Shown one piece after another: positions 39,600 to 64,000 of a DNA stretch of 64,000 nt. The stretch is from Rhodospirillales bacterium (GTDB taxonomy: Bacteria > Pseudomonadota > Alphaproteobacteria > BOG-932 > Roseiterribacteraceae). The notes under the pieces were generated by a model, which worked only from the letters and a program-made list of their open reading frames with translations, had not been told where the DNA came from and ran no database searches. Location of the stretch: the NCBI GenBank assembly GCA_028291365.1, contig JAQGIE010000045.1, forward strand, positions 31,684-95,683, in the 5' to 3' direction. The position numbers were made by a program, and so were the translations under genes. How positions within the stretch are numbered: position 1 is the stretch's first letter; each line of letters opens with the position of its first letter.

Positions 39600-39606
39600 G
39601 GGTGTC

Positions 39607-41757: not shown

Positions 41758-41837
41758 GCCCAAATCCCCCAGTTCCTGATGCCATTCGACAGGCGCGGCG
41801 TTGGACCGCCGATTTTCGCTGTCTGGCGGAGTATGAT

Positions 41838-41851
41838 ATCTGTTATAACAG
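41838..41851. promoter_or_regulatory. Probable GntR operator in the receptor/gntR promoter region
   Basis: ATCTGTTATAACAG contains the perfect palindrome CTGTTATAACAG. The 13 bases ATCTGTTATAACA recur exactly at 44132-44144. A partial copy, TGTTATAC, is at 41911, just before gntR. On the minus strand the site lies next to TTGCCA and TATCAT, possible -35 and -10 elements of the receptor operon, so binding should block transcription. Confidence 0.7.
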
Positions 41852-41953
41852 TTGGCAAGGACCAGATTTGGCTCAATCCTGCAGAAATCGGGCTGAAACA
41901 CGGGGTAATGTGTTATACCCCAGCTAGCAGAATGGCCGGCCGAGGAGCGGAAG

Positions 41954-42688
41954 ATGGCGACAGACGCGGCGCACACGCCGGCCATCCGGCCGGTCGAGCG
42001 CTATGACACCTTGGCCGATCGTGCCTACGAACAGCTTCGCCATGCGCTGACGACGGGCAGTTTCCATCCCGGCCAAAAGCTCACCATCCGCAAGATCGCG
42101 GCGGTGCTCGGCATCAGCGCCACGCCGGCGCGCGACGCGATCGCACGCCTGCTGTCGGAGCGCGTTCTCGAATCCGGGCCCAACCGCACCGTGTCGGTGC
42201 CGATGCTCGATCGCGACAAGCTGCGGCAGATCTATCTGCTGCGCACCGCGCTCGAAGGCATGGCGGCCGAACTGGCAGCACCAAAATTCGACAGCGCCGG
42301 AATCGAAGCGCTCGAACGCACCCAGATCGCGCTGATCGCCGCGATGGATCGCAACGACTACAAGCGGGTGCTGGCCGAGAACGAGGAATTCCACTTCGGG
42401 ATCTATCGCCGTTCCGAAGTGCCGTTGCTGGTCGAGATGATCGGCGCGCTGTGGCTCAAGCTCGGCCCGTCGCTGAACTTTCTCTACCCGTCCTACAATC
42501 ACACGCGCAAAGGCGTGAACCATCACCTGGCGACGATCCGCGCCTTGCGCGCGGCCGACGCGGCCGGCGTTCGCACCGCCATCGAGGCCGACCTGCGCGA
42601 CGGCGAACAGGAACTCGGCAAGGCGCTCGAAACCGAGGCGGGCAAGGGCGCTGCGACCGGCGCTGCAACGCTCGCGAGAGCCAGCTAG
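41954..42688 (+). CDS. GntR-family (FCD domain) transcriptional regulator
   Basis: A 244-residue regulator from ATG 41954. The winged helix is at about 20-85 (LADRAYEQLRHALTTGSFHP, KIAAVLGISATPARDAIARL), and the helical FCD effector domain (FadR C-terminal) with metal-binding acidic and His residues (NEEFHFGIYRR, NHHLATI) follows. It is divergent from the TonB receptor and flanked by the catabolic genes. The TGTTATAACA palindromes at 41841 and 44135 are its likely sites. FCD regulators usually repress until a pathway intermediate binds. Confidence 0.9.
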   Translation: MATDAAHTPAIRPVERYDTLADRAYEQLRHALTTGSFHPGQKLTIRKIAAVLGISATPARDAIARLLSERVLESGPNRTVSVPMLDRDKLRQIYLLRTALEGMAAELAAPKFDSAGIEALERTQIALIAAMDRNDYKRVLAENEEFHFGIYRRSEVPLLVEMIGALWLKLGPSLNFLYPSYNHTRKGVNHHLATIRALRAADAAGVRTAIEADLRDGEQELGKALETEAGKGAATGAATLARAS

Positions 42689-42711
42689 CAGCGCGCTTTC
42701 CCGCGCAAGCT

Positions 42712-44052
42712 TCAGGCGCGGATCGCGCTTTCGAGTTGCGCCGCGAGCGCCAGCAGCCGTGCGTCCCCGTGCGACGGACCCATCAATGTGAGCCCGACCG
42801 GCGCGTCGCCGCCGCACGGAATCGAAATGGCGCAGCGATCGAGGAGATTGGCGACCGCGGCATTCCGGATCGAAAGGCGGCCGGCTTCGGCATAGGCGCG
42901 ATCGTCGGCCAGATCGGCTTCGCGCGGCGGCAGGATCGCGACGGTCGGAAACATCACGAGATCGCAGCCGGCGGTCGCAGCATTGGCTTTTTCGATCAGG
43001 CTCCGACGCGCATCGCGCATCGCGCCGAGCACCGACGGATTGACGTCACGGGCGGCGAGGAACCGGTTCGCGACCCGCGGATCGAGCCGATCGCGATGGC
43101 GCAGGATACGTTCGGCGTGCGAATGCCAGCCTTCGATCGGTGAAAAGCCGCCCGCCGCGTTGAGCTGCGGAATCTCGTGCAGCATGGCGAGGTCGAGCGC
43201 CACGATGCGTACGCCGGCACGCTCGAGCCGATGCCGCGCCGCCTCGAACGCGGCCAGCACGCGCGGATCGGTCTCATCCCAGACATATGTCTCCGGTACG
43301 CCGATTCGGGTCGGCATCGGGCCGAGCGCCGGCGCGTCATCGGCGTGGTCGGCGAGCGCGCGGTCGAGCAAGCTGCAACAGGCGACGGACTGCGCGATGA
43401 AGCCGATCGAATCGAGCGATACCGACAATGGCGACATGCCGGCCTGGTCGATGCGCGACGCGGTCGGCTTGAATCCGACCAGGTTGCAAAAGGCGGCGGG
43501 AATGCGCACCGAGCCGCCCGTATCGGTCCCGATTGCGCCGAGCGCCATTCCGTCGGTCACCGACACCGCCGCGCCCGATGACGAGCCGCCCGCGATATGG
43601 GCCTCGTCGCGCCGCCACGGCGTGTGCGGCGTACCGTAACGCGGATTGAGGCCGAGACCCGACAGGGCGAACTCGGTCATGTTGGTCTTGCCGACGATCG
43701 CGGCGCCGGCGGCGCGCAACCGCTGCACCAGCACCGCGTCGCGCTCGGCGGGCGCCTCGTCGCGCAGCGCATAAGCGCCGGCCATCGTGGGTTCGCCCGC
43801 AACGTCGAACAGGTCTTTGATCGAAATCGGAATCCCGTCGAGCGGCGAACGCGGCGCGCGCGCGCCGTAGCGCCGGTCGGCCTCGGCCGCTGCGCGCATC
43901 GCCGAGTCGGCGTAGAGGCGCGTGAAGACGCGCGCGCCTTGACCGTCGCGGTCCAGGGCGCGATCGAGCGATGCTCGCACCAGCTCGGCGCTGGTGCTGC
44001 GGCGGGCGTTGAGCGCCTGGCTGGCCTGGTGGATGCTGTCAAAGCGATGCAT
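42712..44052 (-). CDS. Amidase-signature family hydrolase
   Basis: A 446-residue amidase from ATG 44052, five bases after AGGAG. The Ser-cisSer-Lys triad is visible: K79 in IPISIKDLFD, the cis-Ser near S157 in AGGSSSGAA and the nucleophile S181 in GTDTGGSVRIP. The spacing matches the family. It has no signal peptide. It is divergent from the SDR-BKACE-HyuAB operon and shares a promoter region containing the GntR operator. It probably hydrolyses an amide or carbamoyl intermediate. Confidence 0.9.
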   Translation of the reverse strand: MHRFDSIHQASQALNARRSTSAELVRASLDRALDRDGQGARVFTRLYADSAMRAAAEADRRYGARAPRSPLDGIPISIKDLFDVAGEPTMAGAYALRDEAPAERDAVLVQRLRAAGAAIVGKTNMTEFALSGLGLNPRYGTPHTPWRRDEAHIAGGSSSGAAVSVTDGMALGAIGTDTGGSVRIPAAFCNLVGFKPTASRIDQAGMSPLSVSLDSIGFIAQSVACCSLLDRALADHADDAPALGPMPTRIGVPETYVWDETDPRVLAAFEAARHRLERAGVRIVALDLAMLHEIPQLNAAGGFSPIEGWHSHAERILRHRDRLDPRVANRFLAARDVNPSVLGAMRDARRSLIEKANAATAGCDLVMFPTVAILPPREADLADDRAYAEAGRLSIRNAAVANLLDRCAISIPCGGDAPVGLTLMGPSHGDARLLALAAQLESAIRA

Positions 44053-44131
44053 CACTTCTCCTAGCAGCGATCGCGCGCCGCGTCGTCAATAAGGGCCATA
44101 AGCGCCAAATCAGTCTTGCTGGTCCGTCGTC

Positions 44132-44145
44132 ATCTGTTATAACAC
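44132..44145. promoter_or_regulatory. Probable GntR operator overlapping the SDR operon promoter
   Basis: ATCTGTTATAACA is identical to the site at 41838. The TATAAC within it would serve as a -10 box, with TTGCTG at 44116 as -35 (16-base spacer). Transcription would then start at about the A of ATG 44151, giving a leaderless message, consistent with the lack of a Shine-Dalgarno. A repressor bound here would cover the promoter; the divergent amidase is also within reach. Confidence 0.7.
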
Positions 44146-44150
44146 ATAAC

Positions 44151-44930
44151 ATGAGTTCTGAAATATTACCCGCTCGACGGGTGCTGGTGACGGCAGGCGC
44201 GGCGGGCATCGGCCTGGCCATCGCGCGCGCTTTTCTGGCCGACGGCGCCGATGTCCATGTCTGCGACGTCGACGCGGCAGCGCTCGACGCGGCGCGGGCC
44301 GAACTCCCCGGACTGGGTACGTCGAACATCCAGATCGGCGACGCGGCCCAGATGGAGCGGCTTCGAGCCGAACTCGAAGCGCGCTTCGGCGGACTCGACG
44401 TGCTGGTCAACAATGCCGGGATCGGCGGGCCGCGCGGCGCCATCGAAACGGTCAGCGACGACGACTGGGATGCGGTGCTGCGGGTCAATGTCACCGGCAT
44501 GTTCCACGCCGTGCGCGCTTTCGTGCCGGCGATGAAGGCGCAACGTTCGGGCTGCATTCTGAATATCTCGACGACCTCGGTGCGCACCAGCCTGCCCAAC
44601 CGCACGCCCTACGTCGTATCGAAGGCGGCGGTGAACGGGCTGACGCGCAATCTCGCGCGCGAGCTGGGCCCGTTCAACATACGCTGCAACAGCATTTCAC
44701 CCGGCTCGATCGAAAACGAACGCGGCCGTGCGTTGATGACCGATCGCGCGGCGCGGCTGGGCCTCAGCTATGACGAGGCACTGCAGCAGCGGCTCGGATT
44801 CATCTCGATGCGGACCCGCATCGAACCGGAAGAGGTCGGGGCGACCGCCGTGTTTCTCGCGTCGCACGCGGCCCGTCACGTGACCGGCCAGGATGTCAGC
44901 GTCTGCGGCAACGTTGAGTGGGAAGAATAA
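44151..44930 (+). CDS. Short-chain dehydrogenase/reductase (first SDR of operon)
   Basis: A 259-residue NAD(P)-dependent oxidoreductase. The nucleotide-binding motif is TAGAAGIGLAIA, NNAGIGG follows, and the catalytic tetrad includes Ser in ILNISTTS and Y-x-x-x-K in YVVSKAAV. D-rich VHVCDVD after strand 2 suggests NAD preference. It is the first gene of the operon. Together with the downstream BKACE it could oxidise a beta-hydroxy acid to the beta-keto acid that BKACE cleaves. It lacks a ribosome site, in line with leaderless translation. Confidence 0.88.
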   Translation: MSSEILPARRVLVTAGAAGIGLAIARAFLADGADVHVCDVDAAALDAARAELPGLGTSNIQIGDAAQMERLRAELEARFGGLDVLVNNAGIGGPRGAIETVSDDDWDAVLRVNVTGMFHAVRAFVPAMKAQRSGCILNISTTSVRTSLPNRTPYVVSKAAVNGLTRNLARELGPFNIRCNSISPGSIENERGRALMTDRAARLGLSYDEALQQRLGFISMRTRIEPEEVGATAVFLASHAARHVTGQDVSVCGNVEWEE

Positions 44931-44933
44931 TCG

Positions 44934-45827
44934 ATGTCGAGCACCGGACATAAGACGATCGTGACCTGCGCCGTGACCGGATCGGGCGCGCTCGGCCCGC
45001 GGTCGGGCGCCGTGCCGATCACGCCGATTCGCATCGCCGAGGATTGCATCGCTGCCGCACGCGCCGGCGCCGCCGTCGTGCATGTGCATGTGCGCGACCC
45101 CGCGACCGGCGCGCCCAGCATGGATCTCGGCCTTTATCGCGAGACGGTGGGACGAATCCGCGACAGCGGCGTCGACGTCGTGCTCAACCTCACCACCGGC
45201 GTCGGCGCCCGCTATATTCCGAGCGAAGAAGATCCGCTGAAGCCGGCCGAAGGTTCATCGCTGTCCTCGCCCGAGCTGCGCGTCCAGCACGTGCTCGACT
45301 TGAAGCCTGAGATCTGCAGCCTCGACGTCGCGACGATGAATTTCGGCAAGCACGCCATCATCAACACGCCCGATCACATCACCAAAATGGCCGAGCTGGT
45401 GCGCTCGGTCGGCACCAGGCCCGAACTCGAAGTGTTCGATCTCGGCCAGATCGAACTCGCCAGCCGGCTGATCGGCGACGGCGTGATCGATGCGCCGGCG
45501 TTCTTCCAGATCTGTCTCGGCGTTCCCGGCGGCGCGCCCGCGACCTCGGAAACCATGCTGCTGATGCGCCGCTTTCTGCCCGACGGCGCGCATTGGGGCG
45601 GCTTCGGCATTTCCGCCGCGTCGTTTCCGATGGTGGGACAGTGCGCGCTGCTCGGCGGGCATGTGCGCGTCGGTCTCGAAGACAATCTCTATCTCGCCCG
45701 CGGCAAGCTGGCCCCCGACAACGCCTCGCTGGTCGAACGGGCCGTCACGATCGTCGAGTCGCTGGGCGGCACCATCGCAACCGCCGCCGAGGCGCGGACC
45801 ATGCTCGATCTGCGCGCAGCCGCGTAG
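44934..45827 (+). CDS. Beta-keto acid cleavage enzyme (BKACE, DUF849)
   Basis: A 297-residue TIM-barrel zinc enzyme that condenses a beta-keto acid with acetyl-CoA, giving acetoacetate and a new CoA ester. The zinc ligands are H50 and H52 in VVHVHVRDP and E249 in VRVGLEDNL. The FQICLGVPGGAP and EVFDLGQIELA segments match the branch containing the dehydrocarnitine-cleaving enzyme, although the substrate pocket cannot be read reliably. It follows the SDR by three bases. It is the step that should release central metabolites in this locus. Confidence 0.92.
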   Translation: MSSTGHKTIVTCAVTGSGALGPRSGAVPITPIRIAEDCIAAARAGAAVVHVHVRDPATGAPSMDLGLYRETVGRIRDSGVDVVLNLTTGVGARYIPSEEDPLKPAEGSSLSSPELRVQHVLDLKPEICSLDVATMNFGKHAIINTPDHITKMAELVRSVGTRPELEVFDLGQIELASRLIGDGVIDAPAFFQICLGVPGGAPATSETMLLMRRFLPDGAHWGGFGISAASFPMVGQCALLGGHVRVGLEDNLYLARGKLAPDNASLVERAVTIVESLGGTIATAAEARTMLDLRAAA

Positions 45828-47879
45828 ATGCGGTTCGCCTGCGATACCGGCGGCACCTTCACCGACCTCGTCGTCGAAGACGCGGACGGGACGTGGCAGC
45901 TCTTCAAGGCGGCGACCACCGCCGACGATCCCGTTCGCGGCGTGCTCGACGCGTTGCGGCTGGCGGCCGACGCCTACGGGCTGAGCCTGGCCGCGCTGCT
46001 GGCGCGCGGCGACGTTTTCGTTCACGCGACCACCCATGCAATCAACGCGGTCATCACCGCCAGGACGGCGCGCACCGCGCTGCTGACGACGCAGGGCCAT
46101 CCCGATATCCTGTTGTTGCGCGAAGGTGGCCGGCCCGATCCGTTCGATTTCCGCATCGCCTATCCGCCGCCCTACATTCCACGCAGCCTCACCTTCGAGA
46201 TCGACGAGCGCATCGACGCTGACGGCAGCGTGTATCGCGCGCTCGACGAAGCTTCGGTGATCGCGACCTGCCGCGAACTCGCCGCCGTCAAAATCGAGGC
46301 GGTCGCGGTGTGCCTGCTGTGGTCGGTGCTGAATCCGGTGCACGAGCTGCGGGTCGGCGAATTGCTCGCCCGGCACCTGCCCGGTGTGCCGGTGACCCTG
46401 TCGCACCTTCTGTCGCCGACCCCGCGCGAGTTCCGGCGTGCCTCGGCAACCGCGATCGACGCGTCGCTCAAGCCGTTGATGGGCGCCTATCTCGGCTCGC
46501 TCACCGAACGGCTGGGCCAGGCGGGCTTTGCCGGTCGCGTACTGGTCGTGACATCGCAAGGCGGCGTGATGGATGCGGCCGAAGTCGCGGCGGCACCGAT
46601 CCATGTGGTGAATTCGGGGCCGTCGATGGCGCCGGTTGCGGGCCGCGCCTATGTCGAGCTGGAAGGCGGCGGCGACGTGGTCGTGGCCGACACCGGCGGC
46701 ACCACGTTCGATGTCAGCGTGGTGCGCGACGGGCGGATTCCGCTGGCGCGCGAATTGTGGATCGGCGCGCCGATCATCGGTCACCTGACGGGATTTCCGT
46801 CGGTCGACGTGCGCAGCGTCGGGGCCGGCGGCGGCAGCCTGGCGCGGGTCGATGATGGCGGCGTGCTGCATGTCGGTCCCGACAGCGCTGGCGCCAAGCC
46901 GGGTCCGGCCTGTTACGGCCGCGGCGGCACGGTGGCGACCCTGACCGACGCGGCGCTGCTGCTCGGCTATCTCGATCCGGCTTTCTTTCTCGGCGGCACG
47001 ATGAAGCTCGATGTCGAGGCCGCGCAGCGCGCCATGCACGCGATCGCGGCGCCGCTGGGCGTCACGTCCGACGAAGCTGCCGCTGCGATCGTCGAACTCG
47101 CCACCGAAACCATGACCCAGGCGATCGTCGACATCACGGTCAAGCAGGGCATCGACCCGGCCGATGCGATCCTGATCGGCGGCGGCGGCGCGGCCGGGCT
47201 GAACATCGTCTTCATCGCGCGCCGGCTCGGCTGCAAGCGCCTGATCATTCCCGGCACCGGTGCCACGCTCAGCGCCGCCGGGGCGTTGATCTCGGATCTG
47301 TCGGCCGATCGCCGCGCCACGCGGCACATGTCGACGTCGCACTTCGACCGCGACGGCGCCAACGCGGTGCTGGAACGGCTCGAAGACGAATGCCGGGTGT
47401 TCGCCGAAGGGCCAGGCCAGGGCGCGATCGCCACGACCTACAGCTACTCGGTCGAAGCGCGCTACGCGGACCAGGCGTGGGAGATCGAAGTCACGCTGCC
47501 GGGCGCTCGCTTCACCGCGGACGGCGACGTCGCCGCGTTCCGGCGTGCGTTCGACGCCGAGCACGAACGTCTCTACGCGTTCGCCGATCCCGCCAGCGCG
47601 ATCGAGATCGTCGGCTGGCGCGTGGGCGTCGCGTGCCGCCTGCGCGAACCCAAGCCCGGCACCTTGCGCGAACGCGTGCGCGGCGGCGCGCCGCGCGACC
47701 GCACCATCCGCCTCCCCGACAATCGGGTCGTCATGGCCAAGGTCTGCGCCTTCGAATCATTGCCGGTCGGCGTGCTGCAGAACGGTCCGGCGGTGGTCGA
47801 ATCGGCTTTCACCTCGGTCGCGATCGACGAAGCGCGCTTCCGGCGCAGTGAAGCCGGCAGCCTGGTGATCGAGCTGTGA
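45828..47879 (+). CDS. hyuA: Hydantoinase/oxoprolinase family protein, HyuA subunit
   Basis: The ATP-binding subunit of an ATP-dependent amidohydrolase or carboxylase complex, 683 residues. RFACDTGGTFTDLVV at the N-terminus is the phosphate-binding motif of the ASKHA fold; VVADTGGTTFDVSVV is the second, and HATTHAINAV is typical of HyuA. Homologues include N-methylhydantoinase, 5-oxoprolinase, acetone/acetophenone carboxylase and caprolactamase subunits. It starts immediately after the BKACE stop and overlaps hyuB by four bases (GTGA), so the two subunits are translated together. Confidence 0.92.
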   Translation: MRFACDTGGTFTDLVVEDADGTWQLFKAATTADDPVRGVLDALRLAADAYGLSLAALLARGDVFVHATTHAINAVITARTARTALLTTQGHPDILLLREGGRPDPFDFRIAYPPPYIPRSLTFEIDERIDADGSVYRALDEASVIATCRELAAVKIEAVAVCLLWSVLNPVHELRVGELLARHLPGVPVTLSHLLSPTPREFRRASATAIDASLKPLMGAYLGSLTERLGQAGFAGRVLVVTSQGGVMDAAEVAAAPIHVVNSGPSMAPVAGRAYVELEGGGDVVVADTGGTTFDVSVVRDGRIPLARELWIGAPIIGHLTGFPSVDVRSVGAGGGSLARVDDGGVLHVGPDSAGAKPGPACYGRGGTVATLTDAALLLGYLDPAFFLGGTMKLDVEAAQRAMHAIAAPLGVTSDEAAAAIVELATETMTQAIVDITVKQGIDPADAILIGGGGAAGLNIVFIARRLGCKRLIIPGTGATLSAAGALISDLSADRRATRHMSTSHFDRDGANAVLERLEDECRVFAEGPGQGAIATTYSYSVEARYADQAWEIEVTLPGARFTADGDVAAFRRAFDAEHERLYAFADPASAIEIVGWRVGVACRLREPKPGTLRERVRGGAPRDRTIRLPDNRVVMAKVCAFESLPVGVLQNGPAVVESAFTSVAIDEARFRRSEAGSLVIEL

Positions 47880-49639
47880 GCGCGCCCGAAACCCCGCAAC
47901 TCAGTGGCGCGCGGCTGGGCGTGCTGCGCAGCCGGATGGACGGCATCGCCCGCAAAATGTCCAACGCGCTGTTGCGCGCCGGACGGTCGGGCGTGCTCAA
48001 TCGCGCCAAGGATCTTTCCTGCTGCATCGTCACCGCCGATTGCCGGCTGCTGACGGCGGCGGACAGTCTTCCGATCCACGTCCTGTCGGGGCCCGACCTG
48101 ATGGCGCGCGCGATGCACGAATTTCATCCCGTGCTCGCGGCCGGCGACGCCTTCCTGCACAACTCGCCCTATCACGGCTGCAGCCACGCCGCCGACCACA
48201 CCATCCTGGTGCCGGTGATCGACGCCGCGGGTACGCATCACTTCACCGTGCTCGTCAAGGCGCACCAGGCCGACATCGGCAATTCGATTCCGACCACCTA
48301 CATGGCGCAGGCGCGCGACGTGTACGAGGAAGGCGCCTTGATCTTTCCCGCCGTGCGCGTGCAGCAGGATTACCGGACCAACGAAGATTTCGTGCGCATG
48401 TGCAGGTCGCGCATCCGCGTTCCCGACCAGTGGCACGGCGATTTTCTCGCCATGATCGGTGCCGCCCGTACCGGCGAGCGCGAGTTGCTGGCGCTGGGCG
48501 GCGAGCTCGGCTGGTCCACGCTGCACGTCTTTGCCGAGCAATGGTTCGACTATGGCGAGCGGCGCATGCGCGCCGCCGTCGCGCGCCTGCCGGCGGGATC
48601 GGCGCAGGGCAGCAGCACGCACGACCCGATGCCCGGCACGCCGCCCGAGGGCGTCATGGTGCGCGCCGCGGTGCATGTCCGCCCCGGCGAGGGCGTTATC
48701 GAAGTCGATCTCACCGGCAATGTCGACGCCTTGCCTTGCGGCCTGAATGTCAGCGAGTCGTGTGCGCGCACCGCGGCGCTGATCGGCATCTTCAACACGC
48801 TCGATCCCGACGTGCCGAAGAATGCAGGCAGTTTCCGCTGTATCGACGTGAAGCTGCGCGACGGCAGCGCGATCGGCGGTGCGCGGCATCCGGTCAGTTT
48901 TTCGGTATCGACCACCAACCTCGCCGACCGCGTGGTCGCGTCGGTGCAGCTCGCCATGGCGACGTTGGCGCCCGATTCTGCCGTCGCCGAAGTCGGTGCC
49001 GTCAATCCGCCGCACAAGGGCGTTGTGTCGGGGCGCGACCCTCGTGACGGGCGGAGGTTCGTCAATCAGCTTTTTCTGGGCAGCACCGGTGGGCCGGGTT
49101 CCGCGGTGAGCGACGGCTGGTTGACCTATTCGCATGCCGGCAATGGCGGTGTGTGCTTCGTCGACAGTATCGAGATGGTCGAGCTGCATCATCCGCTGCG
49201 CGTGCACCGCCGTGCGCTGGTTGCCGACAGCGAAGGGGCGGGGCTGCATTGCGGCGCACCGAGTCTCGAAGTCGAGCTCGGCCCGACCCAGGGCACGCTC
49301 AACATCGCCTATGTCAGCGACGGCATCGTGCATGCAGCGCAAGGCGTGTGCGGCGGCGGCGAAGGCGGCCGTGCCGCCGGGGCACGCCGCGACGCCGACG
49401 GCGTCCTGCGCAATCTGGCCTCGATGGGACAGATCGAGCTCGCACCCGGCGACAGGGTGCTGTCGACCGGCACCGGCGGCGGCGGCTACGGCGATCCGCG
49501 CCGCCGCGATCCGCAAGCGGTGTTGCATGACGTGCTCGACCGCCGCATCACGCGCGAACGCGCCGAAACGGTTTATGGCGTACGAATTCTGGCAGACGGC
49601 ACGCTCGATGCGGCCGCGACTGCAAGGCTGAGGGAGTAG
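47876..49639 (+). CDS. hyuB: Hydantoinase/oxoprolinase family protein, HyuB subunit
   Basis: The second, catalytic subunit of the same complex, 587 residues from GTG 47876. Signatures are LLTAADSLPIHVLS, FLHNSPYHGCSHAADHTILV with metal-binding His/Asp residues, KAHQADIGNS and the C-terminal GGGGYGDPRRRDP. HyuA plus HyuB opens cyclic amides (hydantoin, oxoproline, lactam) at the cost of ATP, or carboxylates ketones. Given the neighbouring amidase, a lactam or imide ring is a reasonable but unproved substrate. Confidence 0.92.
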   Translation: MSAPETPQLSGARLGVLRSRMDGIARKMSNALLRAGRSGVLNRAKDLSCCIVTADCRLLTAADSLPIHVLSGPDLMARAMHEFHPVLAAGDAFLHNSPYHGCSHAADHTILVPVIDAAGTHHFTVLVKAHQADIGNSIPTTYMAQARDVYEEGALIFPAVRVQQDYRTNEDFVRMCRSRIRVPDQWHGDFLAMIGAARTGERELLALGGELGWSTLHVFAEQWFDYGERRMRAAVARLPAGSAQGSSTHDPMPGTPPEGVMVRAAVHVRPGEGVIEVDLTGNVDALPCGLNVSESCARTAALIGIFNTLDPDVPKNAGSFRCIDVKLRDGSAIGGARHPVSFSVSTTNLADRVVASVQLAMATLAPDSAVAEVGAVNPPHKGVVSGRDPRDGRRFVNQLFLGSTGGPGSAVSDGWLTYSHAGNGGVCFVDSIEMVELHHPLRVHRRALVADSEGAGLHCGAPSLEVELGPTQGTLNIAYVSDGIVHAAQGVCGGGEGGRAAGARRDADGVLRNLASMGQIELAPGDRVLSTGTGGGGYGDPRRRDPQAVLHDVLDRRITRERAETVYGVRILADGTLDAAATARLRE

Positions 49640-53111: not shown

Positions 53112-53202
53112 GCGTTGGCGCTGGGCAAGCGCTCACCGCCGAACAAACTTCGTCGAGGCCGCTTGACTCGCCCGCCCGGCAGGCCGCACCTTGCCGCTTA
53201 TA

Positions 53203-53220
53203 TTGGACGGTCGTCCGAAC
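53203..53220. promoter_or_regulatory. TetR operator 1, before the GST-tetR unit
   Basis: TTGGACGGTCGTCCGAAC, with the palindrome GGACGGTCGTCC at its centre. It matches 16 of 18 positions of the minus-strand sequence at 54846-54863. It ends 18 bases before the GST start codon, so a bound repressor would cover the promoter. Confidence 0.75.
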
Positions 53221-53238
53221 TAGATAGAGAGCGGGCAG

Positions 53239-54027
53239 ATGCCGGCGGGCGAGACGGTTGAGCGCGAAGATGCCTTGGCGGGGTTGCCCGAGCTGGTCCT
53301 GTTCCATGCCGCGCATTCGACCTGCAGCCAGAAAGTGCGGCTGTGCCTGGCCGAAAAGAATCTCGCCTATACCAGCCGCATCCTCGCGATCCGGCGCAAC
53401 GAGCATCTCGATCCGGCCTATCTCGCCATCAATCCCAACGGCGTCATTCCGACCCTGACCGTGAACGGCGAGAGCGTGATCGATTCCTCGGTCATCTGCG
53501 AATATCTCGACGAGGTCTATCCGCTGCCGAACTTGTCGCCGCCCGACGCGATGGGCCGCGCCCGCATGCGCGCCTGGCTGCGCTATCTCGAAGAGGTGCC
53601 CACGGCGGCGATTCGCATCCCGTCGATCAACGCGCTGTTCGTCGGGCTGATGAACGAACTCGGCGAAGGCTGGGAAGACGTCAGGCGGCGCACGCCGCTG
53701 CGCGGCGAACTCTATGCCAAGGTCGGTCCCCAGGGCTTCGGCAGGGCCGAAACCGAGGCCTCGCTGCAACGGCTGCGCGCCACGCTCGATCGCGTCGACG
53801 CAGCGCTGCAGAACGGACCGTGGCTGCTGGGTCCGTCCTTCTCGCTCGCCGACATCGTGCTGGCCCCGACCCTGGTGCGCATGGAAGATCTCGGCCTCGA
53901 CGCGATGTGGAGCGATCTGCCGCGCGTCGCCTCCTGGCTGCGCCGTCTGGCCGAACGCCCGTCTTTTGCGATTGCTTATTTTCCCGGTTCGCGCGTTACC
54001 GTCGCCACCACCGACCAGCTGATTTGA
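53239..54027 (+). CDS. Glutathione S-transferase family protein
   Basis: A 262-residue GST. The thioredoxin-like N-terminal domain has AHSTCSQKVRLCLAEKN, NPNGVIPTL with the cis-Pro, and DSSVICEYLDE, the glutathione gamma-Glu site. The helical domain ends with GPSFSLADIVLAPT. A Ser or Cys in the HSTCS segment is the probable thiol-activating residue. It is the first gene of a TetR-controlled cassette, so it probably conjugates, isomerises or cleaves the imported aromatic or its product. It resembles the ligninolytic beta-etherase/maleylpyruvate isomerase type only in general features. Confidence 0.9.
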   Translation: MPAGETVEREDALAGLPELVLFHAAHSTCSQKVRLCLAEKNLAYTSRILAIRRNEHLDPAYLAINPNGVIPTLTVNGESVIDSSVICEYLDEVYPLPNLSPPDAMGRARMRAWLRYLEEVPTAAIRIPSINALFVGLMNELGEGWEDVRRRTPLRGELYAKVGPQGFGRAETEASLQRLRATLDRVDAALQNGPWLLGPSFSLADIVLAPTLVRMEDLGLDAMWSDLPRVASWLRRLAERPSFAIAYFPGSRVTVATTDQLI

Positions 54028-54037
54028 TTTGAGCCCG

Positions 54038-54790
54038 ATGCGCAAAGAACCGGCCGCCGCTGCCCCCAAATCGTCCAAGACCGCCGCGCGTGCCCCCGTG
54101 GCCCGGCAGCGCCAGCGCGGCGATCGCGCCATCCGCACGCGCGAACGTATCCTCGAAGCGGCGCTGCAGGATTTCTCCGAGCGCGGCCTGCATGGCGCTT
54201 CGCTGCGCAGCATCAGCGAACGTTCCGAGGTGCCGCTGAGCGCGCTGCATTATCATTTCGGCTCGAAGGAGGATCTGTTCGCCGCCGCGGTCGAGCAGAT
54301 CTTCGCGCGCCTGTCGGCCGAGCGTCTGGCGCTGCTGGCCAAGGTCGAAGCGGCGCCGGAAAAGATCACGGTCGAGGCGATTCTCCACGCCCTCATCGCG
54401 CCGGTGCTGACCCTGGCCGGTGGCCCGCTCGGGGTCGCCTACGCGATGCTGCAATCGCGCCTCTATGATGCGCGCGAAGCCAGCGACCGCATGCTGACCG
54501 GCGTGGTGCTGCCGGCCACTGCACCTTTCCGCCGCGCCTTGCACAAGGTGCTGCCCGACGTGCCGAACGATCATCTCGTGCGCGGCTATCGCTCGATCGT
54601 GCGCGACATCTCGAACGTCGCGATCGACCCGGCCTTCGAATTGTTGACGGGCAAGCCGTCGCTGCCGAAACAAGCCAAGGGCGTCGAAGAACTGGCCGAG
54701 TTCCTCGTCCGCTATCACGCCGCCGGGCTGCGCGCATTGCGTCGGCCGGCTTCTGCCAAGCCGGCGCCGACGCGGCGCCGCAAACACTAG
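54038..54790 (+). CDS. TetR/AcrR-family regulator
   Basis: A regulator of about 250 residues from ATG 54038; a TTG three codons upstream is possible. A basic Lys/Arg/Pro/Ala-rich N-terminal extension precedes the helix-turn-helix (RERILEAALQDFSERGLHGA, SALHYHFGSKEDLFA). The C-terminal ligand-binding part is helical. It follows the GST gene by ten bases and is flanked by the two matching operators, so it should repress both its own unit and the downstream receptor operon. Confidence 0.9.
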   Translation: MRKEPAAAAPKSSKTAARAPVARQRQRGDRAIRTRERILEAALQDFSERGLHGASLRSISERSEVPLSALHYHFGSKEDLFAAAVEQIFARLSAERLALLAKVEAAPEKITVEAILHALIAPVLTLAGGPLGVAYAMLQSRLYDAREASDRMLTGVVLPATAPFRRALHKVLPDVPNDHLVRGYRSIVRDISNVAIDPAFELLTGKPSLPKQAKGVEELAEFLVRYHAAGLRALRRPASAKPAPTRRRKH

Positions 54791-54845
54791 ACGAACGCGA
54801 CGGATGACGGCTTCGACGCCGCCGTCTTCGCGCGAATAACAATTA

Positions 54846-54863
54846 GGTCGGACGACCGACCAA
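54846..54863. promoter_or_regulatory. TetR operator 2, before the receptor operon
   Basis: GGTCGGACGACCGACCAA; its reverse complement TTGGTCGGTCGTCCGACC matches operator 1 at 16 of 18 positions. The arms GGTCGG and CCGACC are perfectly inverted. The site ends 21 bases before the receptor start codon, almost the same distance as operator 1 from the GST start. Confidence 0.75.
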
Positions 54864-54884
54864 GATAACAAAGCGGGGCTGGGG

Positions 54885-56975
54885 ATGACACGGATGACGC
54901 GGATTGGGATACGTATGCTGCTGGCGGGTACGGCGTTCTGCGCGATGCAGGAGCCGGCGCTGGCACAGGTCGAAGAAGTGGTGGTGACGGCGACGCGCCG
55001 CGCGACGCGGTTGCAGGACACGCCGGTGGCGGTGTCGACGATCAGCGGCGCGGTGCTCGAAAGCCGCGGCGCGGTGAATCTGTTCGACGCGGCGCCGTAT
55101 CTGCCCGGCCTCACCATCAACGGAACGGCGGGCTACGGCAATTTCCCGCTCGGTATTCGCGGCATCGCCGCCAGCACCTCGCTGCTCGGCTCCGACGATC
55201 CGGTCGCGGTCTATATCGACGGTGTCTATATCGGCAAGCCGGCCGCGATCATGGCCGAGCTGCTCGATCTCGACCGCATCGAAATCGTTCGCGGCCCGCA
55301 AGGTACGCTTTACGGCCGCAACGCCACCGCCGGCGCGGTGCTGCTGACGCGGCGCGAACCGGGCCACGAGCCCGACTATTCGGTCGATGCCAGCTACGGC
55401 AGCTTCGGCCGCTGGCGGGTGCAGGCGCGCGCTTCGACGCCGATCGAGGGCGACCGGCTGCGCGGCAGCATCGCGGTCAGCAGCACCGACATGGACGGCT
55501 GGGGCACCAACAGCGTCACCCATGCCGAGGCGGTGAAGCGCAAGGCGACCGCTGCCGTCGGCACATTGGTGTCGGAAGGCGACGTGGTGAAGTTCACGCT
55601 GCGCGCCGACGGCATGAGCGAGACGGTCCACGACGCGTTCCAGAAGATCAACGCGGTCAACTTTGTCGCCGCGTCGCCGTCGCTCGCCGATTCGCGGCTG
55701 CGCCACGATCCCGACAGCTACGCGCTCGACTATCCGACCTATTTCACGCGTCGCGACGGCGGCCTGTCGCTGAACGTCGAAGCCAAGCTGCGCTTCGCGA
55801 CCCTGCATTCGGTCACCGGCTTCCGCCACGACAAGATCTACGGAACCATCGACACCGACGGCACCGCCGCCAGCCTCAACCGCAACCAGACCGAAGAGAA
55901 ACACGACCAGTATTCGCAGTCGCTGTTCCTGACAGGCACCTACGACCGGCTCGACTGGATCGCCGGCGTCGATCTGTTCAAGAGCATCGGCGACGTCCAG
56001 CAGCGCGTCAGCGCCGTCGCCGCCGCCTCGTCGCTGAACATCATCGCCTCGGCCGACGTCGAAAGCGTCGGCGGCTTCGGCGAGGCGACCTGGCGCGTGA
56101 CCGACCAGTTCAGCGCCACTGCCGGCGCGCGTTACAGCCACGAGCAGAAGCGCTATTCCGACCGCGCCGATGCGGTCGGCGTGTTTCCGCCGACAGCCTT
56201 CGCGTCGCAGGAGAAAAGCTGGGACGCGTTCAGCCCGTCCTTGCGCCTGTCCTACAAGGTCACGCAAGACGCGCTCGTCTACGCGTCGGTGGCGAAAGGC
56301 TTCAAGAGCGGCGGCTTCAGCGCCGGCCAGCGGGTGCCGTTCGAGCCCGAAACCGTGTGGACCTATGAAGCCGGCGCCAAGACGACGTGGCTGGGCGGCA
56401 AGCTGCGCGTCAACGGCGCGATCTTCTACAGCGACTACAAGAACCTGCAGGTGCGGGTGTCGACGGGCCTGGGCACCATCCAGACCTTGAATGCGGGCGC
56501 CTCGACCGTGCAGGGCGCCGAGTTCGAAAGCGAGGTCGAACTCGCACCCGGCTTCCACCTCTCGGGTTTCGCCAACTATGTCGACGCGACCTACGACAAG
56601 TATCTCGGCATCGGCGGCCTCAACAACGCGGGCCAGACCTTGAACCGTGCGCCGAAATGGCAGGTCGGCGCGACCGCCAGATACGAACGGCGCCTGGCGC
56701 AGGCGGGCCGCATCAACGGCGAGCTGGTCTATTCCTATCGCAGCCGGATCTACTTCCAGGCGCCGAACCTGCAGGCGCTCAGCGCCGAGCCCTATCGCAC
56801 GCTCGATGCCAATGTCGGCTACGAAACCGAAGACGGGCATTGGACCGTGGCGGTGCTGGGCAAGAACATCACCGACAACCGCCACATCAACAACGTCGTG
56901 ATCTTCGGCGCCAACCTCATCGCCAGCTACAACGAACCGGCCAGCGTGCGCGTGCAGCTCGGCTATCGCTTCTGA
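54885..56975 (+). CDS. TonB-dependent receptor of the TetR cassette
   Basis: An outer-membrane uptake receptor of 696 residues. A signal peptide ends near MQEPALAQ, the TonB box region is VEEVVVTATRR, the plug domain has DRIEIVRGPQGTLYGRNATA, and the barrel ends VRVQLGYRF with the terminal Phe. SVAKGFKSGGFSAGQ is the usual receptor motif. It is the first gene of a four-gene operon joined by ATGA overlaps (receptor, cupin, FAH hydrolase, MFS). The substrate is probably an aromatic or polyketide-like compound. Confidence 0.92.
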   Translation: MTRMTRIGIRMLLAGTAFCAMQEPALAQVEEVVVTATRRATRLQDTPVAVSTISGAVLESRGAVNLFDAAPYLPGLTINGTAGYGNFPLGIRGIAASTSLLGSDDPVAVYIDGVYIGKPAAIMAELLDLDRIEIVRGPQGTLYGRNATAGAVLLTRREPGHEPDYSVDASYGSFGRWRVQARASTPIEGDRLRGSIAVSSTDMDGWGTNSVTHAEAVKRKATAAVGTLVSEGDVVKFTLRADGMSETVHDAFQKINAVNFVAASPSLADSRLRHDPDSYALDYPTYFTRRDGGLSLNVEAKLRFATLHSVTGFRHDKIYGTIDTDGTAASLNRNQTEEKHDQYSQSLFLTGTYDRLDWIAGVDLFKSIGDVQQRVSAVAAASSLNIIASADVESVGGFGEATWRVTDQFSATAGARYSHEQKRYSDRADAVGVFPPTAFASQEKSWDAFSPSLRLSYKVTQDALVYASVAKGFKSGGFSAGQRVPFEPETVWTYEAGAKTTWLGGKLRVNGAIFYSDYKNLQVRVSTGLGTIQTLNAGASTVQGAEFESEVELAPGFHLSGFANYVDATYDKYLGIGGLNNAGQTLNRAPKWQVGATARYERRLAQAGRINGELVYSYRSRIYFQAPNLQALSAEPYRTLDANVGYETEDGHWTVAVLGKNITDNRHINNVVIFGANLIASYNEPASVRVQLGYRF

Positions 56976-57526
56976 TGAAAACCACCATGCATGTACGCTG
57001 CGTCGTCACCGGTCATCATGACGACGGACGTTCGACCTGCGTCGAGGATCGTTCCGTCGTCGAAGGGCCGGGCTGGATGCACGATCTGTGGACCGTGCCG
57101 AGCCTGCCCGCCGACAACGCGCAGGTCGTGCCGCCGCCTTCGCCCAAGCTGCTGCTGGCGCCGCCGCGCGCCGGCGGCATCTTCCGCTTCTTCAAGATTC
57201 CGCCCGACAGCGTGCGCGAAGCGCTCGACGAGGCGTCGATCGAACGCACGCTGCACGAGATCGGCGCCGAGACCGCGAGCTCGGCGGACCGTTCCCGCAA
57301 CCAGCTCTGGCATCGCACCGCGACGATCGACTTCGTCGTGCTGCTGCAGGGCGAGGCCGTGCTGCATCTCGACGACGGGGACGTGGTGCTGAAACCCTAT
57401 GATTGCGTCGTGCAGCGCGGCACGCGGCACGCCTGGAGCAATCCCGGCGACACCGAGGCGGTCTGTATGTGCGTGCTGCTCGACGCCGATCCGCTCGTCA
57501 CCCCAACCGTACAAGAAAAGGCCTGA
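56975..57526 (+). CDS. Cupin-domain protein
   Basis: A 183-residue protein with one RmlC-like beta-barrel in the C-terminal half (TIDFVVLLQGEAVLHLDDGD, CVVQRGTRHAWSNPG). In the first cupin motif the canonical HxH...E is replaced by H-x-x-x-T-I-D, and only one His is left in the second motif. It therefore probably lacks a full metal site and may be a binding or non-metal isomerase cupin. The first 90 residues contain a PPRAGGIFRFFKIPPD segment. It overlaps the receptor stop as ATGA, so it should act on the imported compound. Confidence 0.8.
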   Translation: MKTTMHVRCVVTGHHDDGRSTCVEDRSVVEGPGWMHDLWTVPSLPADNAQVVPPPSPKLLLAPPRAGGIFRFFKIPPDSVREALDEASIERTLHEIGAETASSADRSRNQLWHRTATIDFVVLLQGEAVLHLDDGDVVLKPYDCVVQRGTRHAWSNPGDTEAVCMCVLLDADPLVTPTVQEKA

Positions 57527-57529
57527 CCG

Positions 57530-58435
57530 ATGCGGCTCGTAACCTTTCGCCGTCGCGACTCGACGGAAGACCGGCTCGGTGCGCTGCTCGGCGGCGGTGC
57601 GCGCGTGCTCGACCTGCACGAAGCGGCCGAGACGATGCGCATGCCCGCCGATTCCTTTCGCGGCATGCAGTCGCTGATCGAGGCCGGCGAGGACGCCTGG
57701 GATCGCGCGCGCGACCTCATCACCGTCGCACCGGCCGGTGCGACGCGCGACGCAGGCGCCATCGTGTTGCGGGCGCCGTTGCCGCGCCCCATCCGCATGC
57801 GCGACTTCACCGTGTTCGAGGCCCACGCTTCGCTGGGGGGCACGCGTCCCTTGCCGCCGGTCTGGTACAAATGGCCGGTCTATTACAAGTGCAACCACCT
57901 CGCCGTCGAAGGACCCGACGCGACGGTGCGCTGGCCGTCCGCCTCGAATGACATCGATTACGAGCTGGAACTTGCCGCCGTGATCGGTCGCGGCGGCACC
58001 GACATCGCGCGCGACGGCGCCGAGGCGCATATTTTCGGCTACACGATCTTCAACGATCTCAGCGCGCGCGACTGGCAGTTCGAAGAAATGACGGTCGGGA
58101 TGGGCCCCGGCCGGTCGAAGGATTTCGACGGCTCGAACGTGCTCGGCCCCTGCATCGTCACCGCTGACGAAATCGGCGATCCCTACGCGCTGACCATGGT
58201 GGCGCGGGTCAATGGTGAGGAATGGTCGCGCGGTTCGAGCGGCGGCATGTATCATCGCTTCGACGCCATGATCGAATTCTCGTCCGAAGCACAAACGCTG
58301 CACCCCGGCGAGATCCTCGGCTCGGGCACGGTCGGCACCGGCTGTGGCTTCGAGCTCGGCAAATATCTCAAGCGCGGCGACGAGGTCGAACTGGAGATCG
58401 AACGGATCGGCGTCCTGCGGACGCGGATCGTGTGA
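57530..58435 (+). CDS. Fumarylacetoacetate hydrolase family protein
   Basis: A 301-residue hydrolase or decarboxylase of the FAH superfamily. The metal ligands are E145 and E147 in DYELELAAVIG and D176 in FNDLSARD. The segments GPCIVTADEI and ILGSGTVGTGCGFELGKYL are characteristic. Members cleave C-C bonds in dicarbonyl acids at the end of aromatic degradation (fumarylpyruvate, acylpyruvate, 2-hydroxy-hepta-dienedioate). The long N-terminal part (1-110) is of the FAHD2 type. It sits three bases after the cupin gene, third in the operon. Confidence 0.9.
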   Translation: MRLVTFRRRDSTEDRLGALLGGGARVLDLHEAAETMRMPADSFRGMQSLIEAGEDAWDRARDLITVAPAGATRDAGAIVLRAPLPRPIRMRDFTVFEAHASLGGTRPLPPVWYKWPVYYKCNHLAVEGPDATVRWPSASNDIDYELELAAVIGRGGTDIARDGAEAHIFGYTIFNDLSARDWQFEEMTVGMGPGRSKDFDGSNVLGPCIVTADEIGDPYALTMVARVNGEEWSRGSSGGMYHRFDAMIEFSSEAQTLHPGEILGSGTVGTGCGFELGKYLKRGDEVELEIERIGVLRTRIV

Positions 58436-59631
58436 TGCAGAAGCTGGCGCCTGGCGAATTCCGGCGCGGCTGGCCGGTGCTGCTGTCGGCGCTGGTCGGA
58501 ACCGGCGTCGGCGTCGTGTCGCTGCCTTATTACACGAGCGGCCTGTTCGTGCGGCCGTTGCAGGAAAGCTTCGGCTGGTCGCGCACCGAAATCGCCGGCG
58601 CGCTGACCTGCGGTTCGCTGGTGCTGACGGCGTCGGGGCCGCTGGTGGGAAAGCTGGTCGACTCGGTCGGCGTGCGGCCGGTGGCGTTGGTGTCGCTGCT
58701 GCTGCTGGCCCTCGGCTTCGTGGTCATGACCCAGGTCGGGCCGTCGCCGGCGAGTTTCATCGCCGCGTTCGGCCTGCTGACCTTGCTCGGCGCCGGCACC
58801 TCGCCGGTCACCTTCACGCGTGCGGTGACGGGCTGGTTCGACCGGCGGCGCGGTCTTGCGCTCGGCATCGTGCTGGTCGGTCCCGGCATCGCGGGCGCGA
58901 TCGCACCGCCGCTCTTGAGTCGCCTGATCGACGCGCAGGGCTGGCAGGCGGGCTATCTGGCGCTGGCGGCGGCGGCGGCGGTGTCGCTGCCCTTGATCGC
59001 CTTCGCGCGCGACGGACGGTCCGGCACCGCGACACGCACCGCGCCGGCGGGCATGGGATTCGGCGCCGCCTTGCGCAGCGCGGTGTTGTGGAAGCTGGCG
59101 CTTGCCGCCTTGTTCGCGGCGTCGGCGATCGTCGCGCTGCTGGCCCATTTCGTCCCGCTGCTGATCGACGGCGGCGTGCCCGCGCAGCGTGCCGCCTCGT
59201 ACGCCTCGGTGATCGGCATATCGGTCGTGGTGAGCCGCATCGTCGTCGGCTTTCTGCTCGATCGCCTGTTCGCGCCGGCGGTGGCGGCGGTGGTTTTCGT
59301 CGCGGCCGCCTCGGCCTTTCTATTGCTGGCGGTGGGCGGTGTCGGTGCGGCCTTGCCCGCGGCCGCAATCCTCGGCGTGGCGCTGGGCGTTGAAGGGGAC
59401 GTGATCGCCTATCTGACGTCGCGCTATTTCGGGCTGCGCGCCTACGGACGGATCTTCGGCCTGGTCTATGGCGCGTTCCTCGTCGGCGGCGCGCTGAGCC
59501 CGCTCGCGGCGGGATGGGTGTTCGACCGGTTGGGCTCGTACCAGCCCGCCCTGTACGGCGGCGCCGTGCTGCTGCTCGCCGCCGCGGCGCTGGTCGGCAC
59601 GCTCGGACGGTATCGGTCGTTCACGCTGTAG
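58435..59631 (+). CDS. MFS transporter of the TetR cassette
   Basis: A 398-residue permease with 12 predicted helices starting MQKLAPGEFRRGWPVLLSAL. It resembles the oxalate/formate and monocarboxylate branch (SLPYYTSGLFVRPLQESFGW, WFDRRRGLALGIVLVGPGIA). The start codon overlaps the FAH stop as ATGA. It probably carries the compound brought to the periplasm by the TonB receptor across the inner membrane. It ends the operon. Confidence 0.88.
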   Translation: MQKLAPGEFRRGWPVLLSALVGTGVGVVSLPYYTSGLFVRPLQESFGWSRTEIAGALTCGSLVLTASGPLVGKLVDSVGVRPVALVSLLLLALGFVVMTQVGPSPASFIAAFGLLTLLGAGTSPVTFTRAVTGWFDRRRGLALGIVLVGPGIAGAIAPPLLSRLIDAQGWQAGYLALAAAAAVSLPLIAFARDGRSGTATRTAPAGMGFGAALRSAVLWKLALAALFAASAIVALLAHFVPLLIDGGVPAQRAASYASVIGISVVVSRIVVGFLLDRLFAPAVAAVVFVAAASAFLLLAVGGVGAALPAAAILGVALGVEGDVIAYLTSRYFGLRAYGRIFGLVYGAFLVGGALSPLAAGWVFDRLGSYQPALYGGAVLLLAAAALVGTLGRYRSFTL

Positions 59632-62218: not shown

Positions 62219-62512
62219 TCATGCCTCGACCAGCTCGATCTTGAGCTTCATGCCGAGCGCGCCCGCAGCGCGTTCGAGCGTGTCGAGCGACACCGCGACG
62301 TTGGTCGGGTCAAGCACGCGTTCGACCTGCGTCCGGCTCGTTTTCATCGCGCTGGCGAGATCTTTCTTCGAGAGCCGGATGCGCTTGCGAGCCTGTTCGA
62401 GCTGCCAGGCCAGCACGCGCTTGGTCGCTGTGCTGTCAATGTCAGCGCGCAGGCCCTGCTCGTGCAGGAACGCATCGAACGATTGGCCGCTGGGGTTCTG
62501 CTTCTTCGCCAT
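62219..62512 (-). CDS. XRE-type antitoxin, HigA-like
   Basis: A 97-residue DNA-binding protein starting MAKKQNPSGQSFDAFLHEQG. The helix-turn-helix is at about 48-70 (LSKKDLASAMKTSRTQVERV), followed by the LDPTNVAVSLDTLERAA segment typical of HigA-type antitoxins. It directly follows (ATG after TGA) what remains of a RelE/HigB toxin gene. The antitoxin appears intact and may still repress its own promoter. Whether it neutralises another toxin elsewhere is unknown. Confidence 0.8.
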   Translation of the reverse strand: MAKKQNPSGQSFDAFLHEQGLRADIDSTATKRVLAWQLEQARKRIRLSKKDLASAMKTSRTQVERVLDPTNVAVSLDTLERAAGALGMKLKIELVEA

Positions 62513-62741: not shown

Positions 62742-64000
62742 GTGAACCCGAACGGCCTGACGGATGAGGCCTGGGCGGTGATCGAACCGCTCCTCCCAGT
62801 GCCGAGAAAGACCAATCTTGCGGCCCAGCCGATCTCGTGGCGCGCCGTGCTCGACGCTGCGCTTTGGGTTCAAGCGACTGGCCGGCCCTGGCGCGCGGTG
62901 CCGGCGGAGATTGGTCACTGGAACAGCCTGCACGGTCGCTACCGGACCGGATTGACGGGAGCACTCGAAGGATTGCGTGGCCAGCTCGAAATGCTTGCAA
63001 TCGATGAGGCGACGCGCGGCCTGCTGCGTCAGGCGTTGGCGATCGCACCGGCCACAAACGCATCTGTCGCCGGTGTGACCGGCCACAAGCCGGCGAGGCC
63101 GCCCGCAAATGGCTCGGTTCGATCGGCCACAAACGCGTCGTCGCCGGTGCAGCCGGCCACGGCACCGGCGACAAGTACGCCTACGCGTCAGCGCTTGCGT
63201 GTCGCCCGTGACGCGTTCCGCGGCGGTCTTGTCGCCGGTGTGGCCGGCGAACTTGCCGGCGACAACAAGCGGGCGACCGGCGACGGCGAGGAGGCTCGCC
63301 TTGCCGAAGCTTTCGGCCGCCGCACCGGCAAGGCGGTGACGGGCGCGGTGCTGGATCTGGTCGAGGGCCGGGCCAGCAGACGCGGCGCAGCCAGGAAGCG
63401 CCGCTCTGCCGCCCGGCCGCGGGCGGAGGCGGCGGGCGGCGGCGTCGTCGCCCTGCTGCGGCTGTTGATTCCGTATGTGCCGCGCTGGCTGGTGGCGCTG
63501 TTTGCGTCGCTGGTCCTGTTCGGCGTCGCGGTCGATCGGGGTGGCCAGCAATTCGTCGACTTCCTGCGCTGGGCGCGCGCGCAATGGATCGAATGGACCG
63601 CCATCCCGCCCTACTGGGCGCTCGGCGCAGCGGTGCTGCTCGTCTGCGCGTTCTTCTCGATCCGCCATGTCCAGCGGCGCGCGCCATTCCGCGTGCGGGC
63701 TGAACTCGCCGAATTCGCGCGACTGTCGGCTGACGCGATCAGCCACGGTGATGTGGACGACTGGCTCGATTGCTTCTGCTTCCCTGCGATGCTGGTCGAG
63801 ACCGAAGGCAATCACGTGTTCGCCGATCGCGCGTCGCTGGAAGACCTGTTGGCGACGCGGCTGGACTTCTATCAGGCACAGGGTGTTGCCGCGTGTGTGC
63901 GGCGCGTGCGTGACGCGCGCCTGTTCGCGCCCGATCTGGCGCAACTTCGCGTGCACGACACGTTGCGACAGGCCGATGGCGACGCGATCGTCGCGTGGGA
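62742..64000 (+). CDS. Chimeric membrane protein: IS5-type transposase N-domain plus NTF2-like domain (partial)
   Basis: An uninterrupted frame of about 420 codons from GTG 62742 to the window edge, with no stop. Residues 1-75 (LTDEAWAVIEPLLPVP, ATGRPWRAVPAEIGHW) match the DUF4096 N-terminal DNA-binding domain of IS5-family transposases. A linker rich in Ala, Pro, Thr, Ser and Arg spans about 100-235 (ATNASSPVQPATAPATSTPT). Two membrane helices follow (WLVALFASLVLFGVAV, YWALGAAVLLVCAFFSI), then a cytoplasmic or periplasmic domain (AISHGDVDDWLDCFCFPAML) that looks like a SnoaL/NTF2 fold. No DDE catalytic residues are present. The 3' end is beyond the window. Confidence 0.7.
   Translation, partial: MNPNGLTDEAWAVIEPLLPVPRKTNLAAQPISWRAVLDAALWVQATGRPWRAVPAEIGHWNSLHGRYRTGLTGALEGLRGQLEMLAIDEATRGLLRQALAIAPATNASVAGVTGHKPARPPANGSVRSATNASSPVQPATAPATSTPTRQRLRVARDAFRGGLVAGVAGELAGDNKRATGDGEEARLAEAFGRRTGKAVTGAVLDLVEGRASRRGAARKRRSAARPRAEAAGGGVVALLRLLIPYVPRWLVALFASLVLFGVAVDRGGQQFVDFLRWARAQWIEWTAIPPYWALGAAVLLVCAFFSIRHVQRRAPFRVRAELAEFARLSADAISHGDVDDWLDCFCFPAMLVETEGNHVFADRASLEDLLATRLDFYQAQGVAACVRRVRDARLFAPDLAQLRVHDTLRQADGDAIVAW

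Follow-up and report, generated by a model that had tools for sequence, protein, structure and literature searches.

The catabolic systems closest to the locus analysed here share several of its parts. In the fde and ifc clusters for A-ring fission of flavonoids and isoflavones in Herbaspirillum and Variovorax (PMC11069340), and in look-alikes on plasmids of Burkholderia anthina, Croceicoccus and Sphingomonas, a single-domain cupin lies near an FAH-superfamily protein and an MFS transporter, sometimes with a TonB receptor. The ifc cluster for isoflavones encodes two cupins whose substrate is a 2-hydroxy-4-pyranone (PMC11069340). The lower pathways of gentisate and homogentisate breakdown follow the logic of a GST-type isomerase paired with an FAH-type hydrolase. 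YisK, for which oxaloacetate tautomerase activity has been reported (PMC10825186), and 2,4-diketo-3-deoxyrhamnonate hydrolase represent the FAH fold and metal site in other settings. TetR-TRAP-MBL-GST-FAH(-cupin) islands are found on the Pseudosulfitobacter plasmid pDSM107133_a, in a Rhodobacteraceae MAG and in genome G096. A literature search returned no relevant published cluster combining MBL, GST and FAH with TRAP or cupin genes, or cupin, GST and FAH with TonB and TetR genes.

The locus lies in a 64,000-nucleotide stretch of the genome of a Rhodospirillales bacterium (the window). Its cupin is of the same family as the cupins of the plasmid look-alikes and probably of the fde/ifc clusters, but unlike fde/ifc the window cassette has no VOC dioxygenase, FAD monooxygenase or alpha/beta hydrolase, and its FAH protein is only 26-28% identical to the FAH of this group of clusters. 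It resembles the gentisate/homogentisate pair in joining GST to FAH, whereas the curated models of that pair do not recognize its enzymes and the cassette contains no matching ring dioxygenase. Identity of the window FAH to YisK (27-28%) and to 2,4-diketo-3-deoxyrhamnonate hydrolase (26%) is similarly low, and the gene context is different. The TRAP islands have the same MBL, GST and FAH subfamilies, a TetR and an acid-uptake transporter, and in the MAG also a cupin; they differ in using TRAP rather than TonB plus MFS transport, in occupying one locus rather than two, and in the letters of the operator. Taken alone, the window cassette is an ordinary kind of catabolic cassette, and its interest is raised by a second, unlinked locus that shares its operator and encodes the missing partner enzymes.

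The six-gene cassette and its cupin

All six genes lie on the plus strand, and Pfam confirms the identities originally assigned to them. A GST (53239..54027) with the zeta-like N-terminal motif STCSQKVR is followed by a TetR-family regulator (54029..54790; helix-turn-helix PF00440 at 6.7e-13, PF17939 at 5.5e-7), the translation of which more likely begins with the ATG at 54038 than with the TTG at 54029. Downstream lie a TonB-dependent receptor (54885..56975; plug and barrel domains), a single-domain cupin (56975..57526), an FAH-superfamily hydrolase (57530..58435; FAA_hydrolase) and an MFS transporter (58435..59631; MFS_1). The last of these is closest to the monocarboxylate and oxalate-formate carriers and therefore fits organic-acid uptake. 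The gene arrangement supports a co-transcribed uptake and enzyme unit. The 4-base ATGA overlaps originally described were misread: the receptor/cupin and FAH/MFS junctions are TGATG with a 1-base overlap, the receptor stop TGA occupying 56973-56975 and the cupin ATG beginning at 56975, and the FAH stop occupying 58433-58435 and the MFS ATG beginning at 58435.

The cupin, of 183 amino acids, matches Cupin_2 only, with no NCBIfam match, and is not a two-domain gentisate or homogentisate dioxygenase. Residues H113, D119, Q147 and H152 are invariant in 32 sequences, the second histidine of the usual HxH being replaced by T115, and H113-D119-H152 form a candidate metal site. The nearest structures and family members are Novosphingobium 3es1 and fungal StrC; a literature search found no open paper on StrC function. 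The window cupin is 37-38% identical to the cupins of the plasmid look-alikes of flavonoid-type ring-fission clusters. These plasmid clusters also carry an extradiol-type VOC protein and a 2,6-dihydroxypseudooxynicotine-hydrolase-like protein, component types that are those of the isoflavone ifc cluster (PMC11069340). Searching the bacterium's own genome with the VOC protein of locus L120 (E<=1e-10) returned no extradiol dioxygenase of that type, an empty answer that carries little weight. The original prediction that the cassette encodes no ring dioxygenase thus stands for the two-domain gentisate/homogentisate type but is otherwise uncertain, because the cupin keeps the candidate metal site and is akin to flavonoid-type ring-fission cupins.

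Operator sites in the window and on a second contig

Two 18-base sites had been predicted, and they are present exactly as claimed. S1 (TTGGACGGTCGTCCGAAC, 53203-53220, plus strand) is a quasi-palindrome 18 bp ahead of the GST ATG at 53239, and S2 (TTGGTCGGTCGTCCGACC, 54846-54863, minus strand) is 21 bp ahead of the receptor ATG at 54885, so the near-equal spacing before the two transcription units also holds. The sites are identical at 16/18 positions. With up to 3 mismatches to the 18-base site, the window contains 3 matches against 0.37 expected, a number reached in 1 of 100 shuffles; the third match is S2 in reverse reading. In the 4.37-Mb genome, S1 and S2 are the only two places that match the 14-base core GGWCGGTCGTCCGA exactly; a first-order model predicts about 0.3 such matches by chance genome-wide. 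The 13-base core GGNCGRTCGTCCG occurs at 9 places, namely S1, S2, two promoter sites on contig C32 and five others, all five within coding sequences. All the one-mismatch operator places examined, a subset of those listed, are likewise within coding sequences. These genome-wide checks comprised genome searches and individual sequence stretches, and the coding or promoter placement follows a simple codon-usage gene caller, independent of annotation. A sigma-70-like promoter was not detected close to either site, and the papers listed in a literature search did not contain the exact string GGACGGTCGTCC. Inverted repeats that match at a regulator's own promoter and at a target promoter, and that are rare elsewhere, are what is expected of a TetR autorepressor. 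Position and genome-wide rarity thus support paired promoter-proximal TetR-type sites; judged from their sequence, S1 and S2 are real, well-placed regulatory sites at which TetR binding is predicted.

Contig C32 was reached in two ways: it encodes FAH2, the only other match in the genome to the window FAH at E<=1e-40, and an independent one-mismatch search with the window operator found a match about 1.1 kb upstream of FAH2. Codon-usage gene calls place an MFS transporter and a SnoaL-like protein on its minus strand and, on its plus strand, in order, an MBL-fold hydrolase, FAH2, a TonB receptor, an AMP-binding ligase, a thiolase and molybdenum-hydroxylase subunits. Between these divergent halves lies a pair of operator-core copies, CGGACGGTCGTCCG and CGGACGATCGTCCG, 26 bp apart. 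The string CGGACGNTCGTCCG has exact matches in the genome only at positions 2474 and 2500 of C32, both within the promoter of the MBL-FAH2-TonB genes, and in a genome search the S1 13-mer GGACGGTCGTCCG recurred only in this promoter. The probability of one exact core match by chance in this 237-bp promoter is about 1e-4. No MBL gene adjoins FAH in the window cassette; on C32 one adjoins FAH2, behind the same operator core. The cassette is therefore not the complete, self-contained unit it had been taken for, since its operator core also marks a locus with an MBL hydrolase, FAH2 and an acyl-CoA ligase. As the operator lies, among the places examined, at just one further promoter, before the missing pathway parts, the window cassette is, on this sequence evidence, probably one half of a two-part system with C32.

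Co-location of the parts in relatives

The window TetR was compared with 384 other genomes of the class, and of its four best matches there, two are encoded together with MBL-FAH genes. In genome G226 (locus L150), FAH, MBL, cupin, TetR and AMP ligase genes form one gene run, preceded by two TTGAACGTTCGNNCAA sites that are alike in layout to the window sites and different in letters; in genome G324 (L151), the TetR gene is divergent from MBL-FAH. No close orthologue of the window TetR was found in these 384 genomes, the best being 31-34% identical, and the operator consequently cannot be footprinted across species. The palindromes of the TRAP-type relatives differ from the window operator, and for a paralogous TetR of the same genome (31% identical, on contig C9 beside TonB/MFS genes of its own) no GGNCGNNCGNCC motif was present in the two intergenic stretches checked.

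In three TRAP-type loci (L059, L010 and L113, the last on the Pseudosulfitobacter plasmid), a TetR gene and then TRAP transporter genes precede adjacent GST and FAH genes with an MBL gene beside them, placed first in L059 and L010 and on the opposite strand in L113. L010 has in addition an acetoacetate-decarboxylase-like gene and a cupin. The window GST belongs to the family of these FAH-adjoining GSTs (E 8e-73 and 1e-71 against those of L059 and L010), and the adjacency of the two genes in all three loci bears out the idea that GST and FAH are functional partners. A cupin gene adjoins an FAH-superfamily gene in L058, L011, L116, L117 and L188; in L010, L120 and L150 the two are no more than one or two genes apart. 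Because the parts are co-located in relatives, the genes that are split over two loci here represent a recurrent functional set.

A proposed split regulon and its alternatives

We propose, with somewhat more belief than doubt, that one TetR-type operator governs a split regulon for importing an acid or aromatic fragment and cleaving a 1,3-diketo intermediate derived from it. The TetR protein would repress two units in the window: GST-tetR, which includes its own gene, by way of S1, and receptor-cupin-FAH-MFS by way of S2. Most likely it would also repress an unlinked operon, MBL-FAH2-TonB(-AMP ligase-thiolase) on C32, through the two operator-core copies there. The fragment would enter via the TonB receptor and MFS carrier, the cupin, MBL hydrolase and GST would open or rearrange it, and the FAH enzymes would cut the resulting 1,3-diketo (acylpyruvate-like) acid. 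A pathway intermediate would release TetR and so cause derepression.

The strongest rival, which we regard as rather unlikely, is a separate TetR for C32: the window TetR would control its own cassette only, and a second TetR encoded off the left end of C32 would control MBL-FAH2-TonB and happen to read a related operator. An open-frame tail at C32:2-172 resembles a TetR C-terminus by eye, and for that reason C32 may have its own regulator. The C32 sites have the core GGACGRTCGTCCG in common with S1 and S2 but different flanks, and one of them (C32b) is nearer a perfect palindrome, which also fits two regulons. However, the tail has no significant match among the TetRs compared, the PDB or plasmids, and among the 19 TetR_N places in the genome the sole TetR cut by a contig end (on C22) is of another type by eye. 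The shared 13-mer, moreover, predicts cross-talk even if a second TetR exists. An attempt to join C32 to a TetR-bearing contig found no overlap. That S1 and S2 are palindromes arisen by chance in GC-rich DNA, or the stems of terminators there, is highly improbable; S2 on the minus strand does score as a weak terminator-like stem, but the sites are unique genome-wide and lie in promoter position. A terminator role for S2 was rejected, no minus-strand gene ending there and the plus strand having no T-run after the stem.

The enzymes permit other readings of the chemistry. In the original prediction they were likened to the end of gentisate-type ring cleavage, and a gentisate or homogentisate lower pathway would make the GST a maleylpyruvate or maleylacetoacetate isomerase and the FAH a fumarylpyruvate or fumarylacetoacetate hydrolase. 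The GST carries an STC variant of the zeta SSC motif, and its PDB matches include maleylpyruvate isomerase. Bacillus relatives of the window FAH flank genes for 4-hydroxyphenylpyruvate dioxygenase (HPPD) and homogentisate dioxygenase, identified by eye from the sequences, and fumarylpyruvate and maleylpyruvate hydrolases are among the fold matches of the FAH. We nevertheless find this pathway improbable. The GST scores 77.8 bits against the TIGR01262 maiA cut-off of 171.05, over its N-terminal part only, and the FAH 44.3 bits against the TIGR01266 fumarylacetoacetase cut-off of 375.3. The cassette also lacks a two-domain gentisate or homogentisate dioxygenase, and those hydrolases stand further down the fold list than YisK and 2,4-diketo-3-deoxyrhamnonate hydrolase. 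The enzymes may plausibly work like the gentisate pair, but membership in its families fails on both models. The FAH (PF01557 at 9.3e-56) keeps an intact ExE...D...K signature, its metal-site residues E145, E147 and D176 and its lysine K197 being invariant, and its predicted model (pLDDT 93) has YisK as best fold match (TM 0.90). Given the activity reported for YisK, the FAH might instead be a house-keeping oxaloacetate tautomerase or decarboxylase and the GST a detoxification enzyme, in a mixed stress and uptake unit. We rate this as quite improbable, as the subfamily is kept beside MBL, GST, cupin, cyclase and organic-acid transporter genes in many lineages, and such neighbourhoods under TetR or other regulators are typical of catabolic islands.

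If the split regulon under the window TetR is correct, a testable four-site regulon will have been obtained from sequence alone, and a widespread, uncharacterised MBL-GST-FAH-cupin module, seen here in Rhodobacterales and several other lineages, would come under a defined repressor. More tentatively, the two unlinked loci under one TetR may constitute an undescribed route for the catabolism of a diketo or pyranone acid derived from plants or lignin, consisting of TonB and MFS uptake, an AMP ligase, MBL, GST, cupin and two FAH enzymes, which in other lineages forms one operon under related TetRs. Under the split regulon, the operator would give access to the inducer, whose identity would in turn tell what substrate the module acts on.

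Surroundings of the cassette in the window

The methyladenine glycosylase gene is separated from S1, the operator at 53203-53220, by a terminator-like stem (window 53177-53196) that would insulate the cassette formed by the GST-tetR unit and the receptor-cupin-FAH-MFS operon. The neighbouring cassette (window 38472-49639) comprises genes for a serine hydrolase, a TonB receptor, a GntR-FCD regulator, an amidase, an SDR, BKACE and hydantoinase A and B. At the right end of the window, a small helix-turn-helix protein resembles a HigA-type antitoxin (62219-62512), and an open frame at the contig end resembles an insertion-sequence transposase (62742-63998).

Related and possible regulators in the same genome

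The nearest in-genome paralogue of the cassette TetR (31%) belongs to a further cassette, TonB receptor-TetR-MFS, on contig C9 (L126 1569-5893, minus strand), where the GGACGNTCGTCC motif was absent from the intergenic stretches examined. At the left end of contig C32, which carries the MBL-FAH2-TonB locus, an open frame truncated by the contig end (L053 2-172, plus strand) encodes a C-terminal tail that, judged from its sequence, looks like a TetR C-terminus; none of the searches confirmed this identity.

Related loci in other genomes

On a Bradyrhizobium plasmid, FAH, cupin and BKACE genes occur together with a TetR-like gene opposite (L188 6065-9421); a BKACE gene is likewise present in the window, 8 kb upstream of the cassette. 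In the relative genome G226, FAH, MBL, cupin, TetR and AMP ligase genes form a single run (L150 1-5913) preceded by two TTGAACGTTCGNNCAA sites, and this locus is the split system in compact form.
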